In this document: positions 19,125 to 59,560 of the stretch, piece after piece
Layout of the letters: each line of letters starts with the position of its first letter
Numbering within the stretch: the first letter of the stretch is position 1
Source: Halolamina sp. CBA1230
Lineage (GTDB): Archaea > Halobacteriota > Halobacteria > Halobacteriales > Haloferacaceae
Reading direction: 5' to 3'
Length of the DNA: 64,000 nt
Assembly (NCBI RefSeq): GCF_002025255.2
Contig: NZ_CP054587.1
Coordinates: forward strand, 1,302,001-1,366,000
Position numbers and translations under genes: made by a program
The notes under the pieces: model-generated
Databases searched by the model: none
Told to the model about the DNA's origin: nothing
What the model saw: the letters and a program-made list of their open reading frames with translations, nothing else

Positions 19125-19193
19125 TCGGTTCGTTGCGTCAGCGTTTGACGGGACGTGAACGTCGCGTCGAGGGCGGTTTCGGAACGGCGCTGT

Positions 19194-19265
19194 AACCGCA
19201 ACAGCGACTCGGTCGTTGGCCACCTCGACAACCGCAACAGCGACTCGATCGTTGGCCACTTGCGA
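19194..19265 (+). repeat. Two 36-bp tandem units at the left flank of element copy A
   Basis: The unit beginning AACCGCAACAGCGACTCG occurs at 19194-19229 and again from 19230. The second runs into the left terminal inverted repeat of the element. Related units, inverted, follow the right end (19562-19640), where GATGCTGTTGC recurs in degraded form. Confidence 0.75.
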
Positions 19266-19577
19266 CCGCACCGCCCCGTGCAGCCCACGGACCTCCCCAA
19301 CCGATTCGCTCGTTCGCTCCGCTCACTCGCTCATCCCTCACGCTTGCTCGTCCACGGAGGGACTCGCGTTTCGCGCCGACAGCGACCGCGGTGCAGTGGC
19401 GGTGGACGCCTCGCGCTCGCCAACGTGGCGAGGCGGGCGAGAGCCGCAGGCTCTCGCTGCTTCCCGCTCGCTTCGCTCGCGGGAACGCGGGGGGAGGGGT
19501 GGGGAATCCTTCCCAGCGCCGGACCTCGTGTCCGGCGCACTGCGGTCGCAAGTGGTCAACGATCGAGATGCTGTTGC
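19234..19577 (+). mobile_element. Non-coding inverted-repeat element, copy A
   Basis: 344 bp bounded by 37-bp terminal inverted repeats (19234-19270 and 19541-19577, about 34/37 matching). Interior blocks in order: CCGCCCCGTGCAGCCCAC; a variable Ser/Arg-shadow region; CGCGCCGACAGC and GTGGCGGTGGACGCCTCGCG (19372-19415); variable palindromes (CTCGCC..GGCGAG, GAGAGCC..GGCTCTC, CGCTCGCTTCGCTCGCGG); GCGGGGGGAGGGGTGGGG; and a 9-bp hairpin with loop CTCGT (19516-19538). No credible protein is encoded. It fills most of the 610 bp gap between the nikR-like and SDR genes and has the same orientation as both. Copies B and C share the order of blocks. Confidence 0.8.
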
Positions 19578-30798: not shown

Positions 30799-30909
30799 GC
30801 CGATTTAGTCGGGGAGTGGTTTGGGTAGTGGTTCTGTTTGCTCGAATGGCGGTCTGCTCGCGATTACGGTGTGTTCGATTCTCGACCTCTACCGCCGCGA
30901 CCGCGAACA

Positions 30910-31260
30910 GCAACAGCATCTCGAAGCATGACCACTGGTGACCGCAACCGCCCCGCACAGCCCTCACGCCTCCCCAGCCGACTCGTTCGCTCCTTTCAGT
31001 CGCTCACTCGTCCCTCGCGCGCTCGTTCGCCCACGCAGGGGCTCACCTCGCGCGCCGACAGCCACGGCGGTGCGGTGGCGGTGGACGCCTCGCGATCGGG
31101 AATTTCGCCGATCGCGGGGGGAGGGGTGGGGATTCGGCGCTGTGCCGTTGACGAGAGCCTGCGGCTCTCGTCTGCCAATCAGAAATCTCCGATTTCTGAT
31201 GATGGGCCTCGTGCCCGGCATCCTTCGGTCACCAGTTGCCAACGAACGAGATGCTGTTGC
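30910..31260 (+). mobile_element. Non-coding inverted-repeat element, copy B
   Basis: 351 bp with 37-bp terminal inverted repeats at 30910-30946 and 31224-31260 (about 29/37 matching; the outer 14 bases ending ATGCTGTTGC are perfect). Same block order as copy A: CCGCCCCGCACAGCCC, CTCCCCAGCCGACTCG, CGCGCCGACAGC, GTGGCGGTGGACGCCTCGCG, a palindrome (CGATCGG..CCGATCG), GCGGGGGGAGGGGTGGGG, further palindromes, and GGGC-CTCGT-GCCC. A palindrome AATCAGAAATCTCCGATTTC lies where copy A has none. It occupies the 624 bp gap between the ATP-grasp and LLM genes, in their orientation. A diverged repeat unit continues to about 31305. Confidence 0.8.
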
Positions 31261-31422
31261 TGTCGCGGTTGCTGTCTCAGTAGCCAACGATCCAGATCCA
31301 ACTCTCATCTGCGACGAACAACCCCCCGATCCATGATCGAACCCACACTCCGAACCGCGAAACCCCACCGTTTCGCCGGCTTCCGGTAGTACCTAACCCT
31401 CAGACACAAACCAACGACCAAG

Positions 31423-59028: not shown

Positions 59029-59131
59029 CGATCGGTGGTTGTGGCGTGTGGGTGAAAACGTTCGTTGTTCGTCGGTGTCGACGTTGGCTTCGATACCGTC
59101 TCTCGACTCGTCGATTACGCGACGGCGACGG

Positions 59132-59248
59132 CATCTCGATCGTTGGCAACTGGGACAGCAACCGCAACAGCATCTCGACCGTTAGCAACCGGGACAGCAA
59201 CCGCAACGGCATCTCAACCGTTGGCAACTGGGACAGCAACCGCAACAG
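59132..59248 (+). repeat. Three 39-bp tandem repeats flanking element copy C
   Basis: Units at 59132-59170, 59171-59209 and 59210-59248. Each starts CATCTC[GA]A and runs through GGGACAGCAACCGCAAC. Units differ at only a few bases. The last merges into the element's terminal inverted repeat. Confidence 0.88.
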
Positions 59249-59560
59249 CGTCTCGAAGCATGACCACTTGTGACCGCAGGGTGCCGGGCACGAGGCCCGG
59301 CACAGCATGGACTCCCCACCCCTCCCCCCGCGCTCGCGACCGTTGCGAGCGCGAGGCGTCCACCGCCACCGCACCGCTGCCGCTGTCGGCGCGAAGCGCA
59401 CGCGGCCTCGTGCCGCGTGTCAGCGCGAGGGACGAACGAGCGAAGTTCTCGTGAACGAAGTGAACGAGAGCACGGCAGAGCTTTGCTCTGCCGGAGCGAG
59501 TGAGTCGGCTGGGGAGGTTTGTGGGCTGTGCGGGGCGGTGCGGTCACAAGTGGTCATGCT
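59242..59560 (-). mobile_element. Non-coding inverted-repeat element, copy C
   Basis: About 319 bp. Terminal repeats at 59242-59278 and 59539-59560 (22 bases, shorter because the outer part is replaced by CACTCCGCGGTGACG). Read on the minus strand it has the same blocks as A and B: CCGCCCCGCACAGCCCAC, CTCCCCAGCCGACTC, palindromes, CGCGCCGACAGCGG, GTGGCGGTGGACGCCTCGCG, CGCTCGC..GCGAGCG, GCGGGGGGAGGGGTGGGG, and GCCGGGC-CTCGT-GCCCGGC. It lies in an 863 bp gap and points the same way as the two flanking genes. Confidence 0.78.

Follow-up and report, generated by a model that had tools for sequence, protein, structure and literature searches.

Haloquadratum walsbyi harbors small mobile repeats (SMRs), which lack a transposase and whose mobilization has been termed enigmatic (PMC3119063). 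SMRs comprise approximately 80-110 bp, are more than 95% identical within each type and show no target duplication. Palindromes within other elements serve as insertion sites for SMR-A, and a large H. walsbyi plasmid is free of SMRs (PMC3119063). Beyond these elements, no haloarchaeal repeat of the kind described here was found in the literature covered, which included few subscription papers, and an Rfam search gave no match to a curated family. The hairpin H4 studied here is part of an apparently unannotated extragenic repeat of about 300 bp, which is bounded by inverted repeats.

Layout of the element

Coordinates refer to the window, i.e. the whole stretch of 64,000 nucleotides of Halolamina sp. 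CBA1230 that was analyzed. The host genome (G000) has 3.47 Mb with a chromosome contig of 2.90 Mb and was studied on stretches around the copies. Three copies lie within the window, copy A at 19.2 kb (+), copy B at 30.9 kb (30905..31300, +) and copy C at 59.2 kb (59119..59556, -). The latter two were delimited by a repeat finder; the locus of copy B is also occupied in G003 and G004, and copy C is common to G001, G003 and G004. The length of the element varies between about 240 and 400 bp. Sequence comparison of 53 extracted places, two of which derive from one duplicated core, revealed one common layout. It starts with the inverted repeat CACTTGYGACCGCA and a C-rich arm ending in CCTCCCCARCCGAYTC, followed by hairpin H1, the motif RTCCCTCGCRC and hairpin H2. 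The right part consists of GGTGGACGCC, hairpin H3, the segment GGGGGAGGGGTGGGGA, hairpin H4 and the second inverted repeat.

In copy A, a TIR pattern search identified the left inverted repeat CACTTGCGACCGCA at 19257..19270 (+) and its right counterpart at 19541..19554 (-). The H1 region with the ATCCCTCACGC motif (19308..19343, +) contains a GAY/RTC base pair covarying across genera, and is followed by the variable H2 region (19344..19379, +), which was delimited by sequence comparison. The right-half core (19400..19557, +; G000:C1:1321400-1321557) matches the covariance model R1. Within it, H3 (CGCG-CTCGCC-AACGT-GGCGAG...CGCG) spans 19412..19489 (+) and carries, in the 3' side of its stem, two extra hairpins (19433..19485, +) that are missing in most copies. 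The conserved G-rich segment GGGGGAGGGGTGGGGA lies at 19490..19505 (+). Tandem repeats flank the element outside its inverted ends, on the left side of copy A as CAACCGCAACAGCGACTCGATCGTTGGCC-type units (19193..19256, +; repeat finder). Tandem units of about 39 bp (CAACCGCAACAGCATCTCGA...) at 19193-19282 (copy A) and 59119-59290 (copy C) contain the end sequence of the element. Two-hairpin inserts of various other kinds occur in H1 and H2 (L004, L028, L167), the H2 insert of L004 being located between TG/TG like the 55-bp unit described below.

Copy number and distribution

Allowing for up to one mismatch, the genome contains the core 15-mer GGTGGACGCCTCGCG at 55 places and its reversed pattern at none. 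By pattern search, the terminal inverted repeats CACTTGYGACCGCA were detected at 125 places (60 forward, 65 reverse), mostly as facing pairs. The element is present in all seven Halolamina genomes, in which model R1 found 63 (this genome), 58, 35, 12, 7, 6 and 3 copies; among 163 other genomes of the family, the model gave two marginal matches only. The left arm extends much further. Its pan-haloarchaeal 16-mer CCTCCCCAACCGATTC (19292..19307, +) was found by an exact pattern search in 45 of 117 Halobacteria genomes and 19 of 49 genera, with up to 107 exact places per genome and none for the reversed-pattern control. Among the carriers are Halococcus morrhuae, H. thailandensis, Haladaptatus, Halogranum, Halobellus, Halorientalis and Halovenus. 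The exact 16-mer is missing from 72 of the 117 genomes, the pattern being so strict that diverged left arms escape. Since the left arm is order-wide while the right half recognized by R1 is nearly limited to the genus, the Halolamina element looks like an old arm combined with a genus-specific right half. In other genera, two left arms sometimes face each other approximately 230 bp apart. One such arrangement (L268, 1300-1650) is enclosed by CAAATGAGTACCGCA inverted ends and is possibly an ancestral form. Several genomes (L095, L107, L318, L326) contain a second haloarchaeal repeat (GTGAAAGCCCC...CCCCTTTCAGTCCCACC) adjoining the left arm.

All copies listed for this genome reside on the chromosome contig, the plasmid contigs being without a listed copy. 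The left-arm pattern did not occur in the viral contigs searched and the plasmid collection searched contained no match to the element, so that a virus or plasmid was rejected as its vehicle. The repeat is a high-copy element of haloarchaea that is order-wide and apparently unannotated.

Hairpin H4 and the covariation of stems

An earlier note, made from the sequence of the window alone, had described H4 as a hairpin whose stem changes in compensating pairs around an invariant CTCGT loop. In copy A, sequence check, covariation and fold energy agree on the hairpin at 19516..19538 (+), and its position, stem and loop are as claimed. It forms a perfect 9-bp stem of GCGCCGGAC (19516-19524) and GTCCGGCGC (19530-19538) enclosing CTCGT (19525-19529). 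Folded as single-stranded DNA, it reaches -13.3 kcal/mol (z = -5.3), and none of 200 shuffles was equally stable. The stems reported for copy B (31204-31216, +) and copy C (59281..59303, -; sequence check) were likewise recovered, as was a second hairpin (CTCGCC; CGATCGG; CGCTCGC). The short GGGC/GCCC of copy B is in fact a stem split by a 55-bp double-hairpin insert (31148..31202, +) flanked by CG/TG, whose excision (L311) restores TGCCGGGC/GCCCGGCA. The loop, on the other hand, is not invariant. Of the aligned copies of this genome, 28 out of 34 carry CTCGT, as do 76 of the 149 best hairpins of seven genomes, the latter value being a lower bound since insert hairpins make up part of the 149. 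CTCGT is merely the commonest H4 loop besides TTCAT (12), CTTGT (10), CCTGT (7) and further ones that roughly follow YYYRT. The orientation of the H4 loop was forward in 109 cases and inverted in three.

The compensating changes stood up to covariation statistics. In 34 uninterrupted copies of this genome, 98.5% of the stem cells of the alignment are paired, and 89 cells show two-sided changes compared to 24.7 +/- 4.3 in shuffles. When the partners were slid, only 29-49% of the cells were paired and the two-sided changes dropped to 1-12. For 95 copies of six sister species, in an alignment that was fitted to the model and therefore leans towards it, the values were 97.0% paired and 258 two-sided changes versus 81.5 in shuffles. 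Comparison of same-locus copies across species yielded 325 two-sided changes from one Watson-Crick pair to another, versus 25 one-sided changes to wobble and 59 to mismatch, in 93 overlapping pairs that share copies and are not independent. All these counts were made without a tree on mutually related copies. The covariation is real and strong, and since it also exists between same-locus copies of different species, something keeps the stems paired. H3 and H4 evolve in different ways, as among the orthologues of G000 and G004, 29 of 31 two-sided changes in H4 are transitions (29:2), while those in H3 are mostly base-pair flips (69:10).

Folding at the DNA or RNA level

We give about even chances to the explanation that the repeat is a non-autonomous, hairpin-rich extragenic DNA element of Halobacteria whose fold is kept mainly at the DNA level. 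The element consists of conserved single-strand motifs linked by a row of hairpins, with inverted repeats at its ends. The hairpins may act as folded DNA, either as cruciforms or as hairpins of single strands at forks or in recombination, and a trans-acting recombinase or a host structure-binding protein may recognize the fold, the H4 loop and the end repeats. This need for recognition, in combination with template switching and copy-to-copy exchange, would keep the stems paired, their sequence turning over fast while the fold stays. In addition, the stems would be enlarged by insertion of 55-bp double-hairpin units, usually beside or inside a palindrome.

It is rather unlikely that the repeat is instead a structured noncoding RNA or an element of 3'-UTRs, in which H3, H4 and their loops would be selected in a putative transcript; located downstream of genes, they might for instance act as signals for processing, stability or termination. 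Besides the strong covariation and the preserved orientation of the H4 loop, whole copy A folded as RNA gives a z of -8.6. However, a selected transcript should tolerate G.U but not A.C mismatches. Single mismatches in H3 and H4 occurred at a G.U:A.C ratio of 28:26, leaving out the innermost H3 pair because of its ambiguous alignment, whereas tRNAs of the same DNA gave 12:0 (Fisher p = 0.002), in a small test for which related copies were pooled. Considering all variable hairpin positions, the ratio was 50:40. A first count of 143 G.U versus 40 A.C was rejected as RNA evidence because a single T.G, conserved in 93 copies at the H3 base, accounted for it. At the GAY/RTC pair of the left arm, nine C.A and no T.G were found besides about 150 Watson-Crick pairs; C.A at this position corresponds to a wobble on the opposite strand, with which a transcript of that strand would be compatible. 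H4 is the part of the element most compatible with ordinary compensatory evolution, as its changes retain the purine/pyrimidine orientation (29 of 31 transitions) and its own G.U:A.C ratio is 19:10 (p = 0.14). The transitions count against the DNA-level explanation in so far as RNA compensation would give them equally. By contrast, the flips prevailing in H3 count against a selected transcript, as does the missing Rfam family, and the fold and inverted ends work on either strand. Flanking genes pooled over three genomes, including orthologous loci, were convergent in 44, divergent in 15 and tandem in 73 cases, which counts in favor of the RNA explanation. Due to the included orthologous loci and a ratio of only 18:9 (p = 0.12) in this genome alone, the bias towards convergent neighbors is suggestive only. 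Thus, the selection on secondary structure proposed in the earlier note is supported in part: the maintenance of stem pairing stands, while selection at the level of a transcript does not follow from it, and maintenance as RNA is not the conclusion drawn. The evidence favors folding of DNA at least as much as folded RNA.

Turnover at shared loci and possible template switching

G000 and G004 share 28 copies at the same locus and in the same orientation, with both flanks matching and being about 89% identical. The core identity of these orthologues (84.9%) hardly differs from that of non-orthologues (84.4%) and of paralogues (84.7% and 85.2%). Even copies at shared loci show saturated stem turnover, and both inserts and stems vary freely between species at one locus. 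At the site of copy A, for instance, G000 and G004 carry the element, but its internal hairpins differ greatly between the two, while H. salifodinae has an empty site where 14 bp separate the two gene matches. At this sole resolved filled/empty site, the junction that might reveal a target duplication of the whole element is masked by flanking repeats. Long persistence at orthologous loci and the lack of copies in the plasmids searched suggest little present mobility of the element, which counts against the preferred explanation.

Saturated turnover, as well as small loops in both orientations, is also expected from template switching or copy exchange, and template switching has been documented elsewhere to alter both sides of a stem in concert and to invert loops (PMC8794818). 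It might therefore be argued that there is no structural selection at all and that template switching at replication, together with gene conversion, creates perfect hairpins with covariation as a by-product. This is unlikely, although orthologous copies are as unlike as random ones, unpaired intermediates are few and the small loops of the insert hairpins were found in both orientations (TCC/GGA, TTC/GAA, GCA/TGC). The H4 loop is conserved and seldom inverted, different genera retain the single-strand motifs as well as the GAY/RTC pair, and the changes in H4 are single-pair transitions rather than block replacements.

The 55-bp insertion unit

The unit enlarging the H4 stem of copy B (TYGACGAG...CTCGTCTGCCAAYCAGAA...TTCTGRTGA) was detected at 26 places of this genome (L302-L327) and is rare among other Halobacteria. 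Its 17-mer gave two viral matches, which were judged to be chance. Both orientations of the unit were found in H3 and H4, where direct repeats of 2 bp (CG/CG, CG/TG, TG/TG) flank it. Excision of the unit along with one repeat restored a perfect stem of 8-12 bp in most of the H3/H4 copies tested, the clearest case being CA/CA in L082. Some copies elsewhere sit outside palindromes. One of the units (L323, G000:C1:2381709) lies within an apparent protein-coding frame.

Possible mobilization and host function

Among the listed places of the terminal inverted repeats in this genome, there was no kilobase-spaced pair as expected for an autonomous partner with the same ends; the missing mobilizer and the restriction to one filled/empty site weigh against the preferred explanation. 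Y1 transposases (PF01797) are encoded by 14 of 23 high-copy genomes and absent from nine (Fisher p = 0.35 for presence). Since their distribution does not track copy number, mobilization by IS200/IS605 or RAYT was rejected. That the repeat has been domesticated by the host like bacterial REP/BIME, as a putative binding site of a nucleoid protein, a replication protein or one of the topoisomerase type, is improbable: the persistence at orthologous loci, the chromosomal location of all copies listed for this genome and the facing left arms in other genera would fit, but copy numbers from 3 to 63 among congeners, the many Halobacteria genomes without the 16-mer and the missing link with Y1/RAYT-type transposases argue against it.

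Tentatively, and with rather less than even confidence, the repeat may belong to chromosomal DNA elements that form an order-wide class in Halobacteria and are defined by their fold instead of their sequence. Stems would be continually rewritten and enlarged by tiny double-hairpin units, whereas loops, junction motifs and position are kept, and the element would be mobilized or used via folded single-stranded DNA by a novel enzyme. Covariation is usually taken as proof of a functional RNA. The repeat offers a natural example of strong covariation alongside strand-symmetric mismatches and saturated turnover, and can hence serve to test how far processes at the DNA level yield the signature of covariation.

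Comparison with known systems

With PATE/IS605-type haloarchaeal elements, the repeat shares hairpins near its ends and heterogeneous sequences, but PATEs do not possess the terminal inverted repeats found here. REP/BIME associated with RAYT are likewise extragenic palindromes of high copy number that occur as facing pairs. They are distinguished from the repeat by its several hairpins and inverted ends, and by the presence of Y1 transposases being unlinked to copy number. The haloarchaeal MITEs (e.g. HqIRS families; reviewed in PMC10969869) are non-coding, shorter than 500 bp, intergenic and foldable with inverted ends, as is the element. However, its ends, at the places listed for this genome, matched no transposon, its stems vary compensatorily, its copies occupy orthologous loci across species, and the one site available, where repeats mask the junction, revealed no duplicated target for the element as a whole.

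In our best reading, the SMRs of H. walsbyi are the nearest counterpart of the element, which is relevant to the question of how transposase-free small repeats of haloarchaea move. The element is not a member of this group with respect to length, identity and target duplication: it comprises about 300 bp with a core identity of about 85% and reshuffled stems, in contrast to the short and nearly identical SMRs, and its 55-bp unit is flanked by 2-bp direct repeats, while SMRs lack a target duplication. What the element has in common with SMR-A and SMR-B are its shortness, inverted terminal repeats, the lack of a transposase and tens of copies. Just as the large H. walsbyi plasmid is free of SMRs, the listed copies are absent from the plasmid contigs, and the 55-bp unit enters the stems of H3 and H4 as SMR-A enter palindromes.
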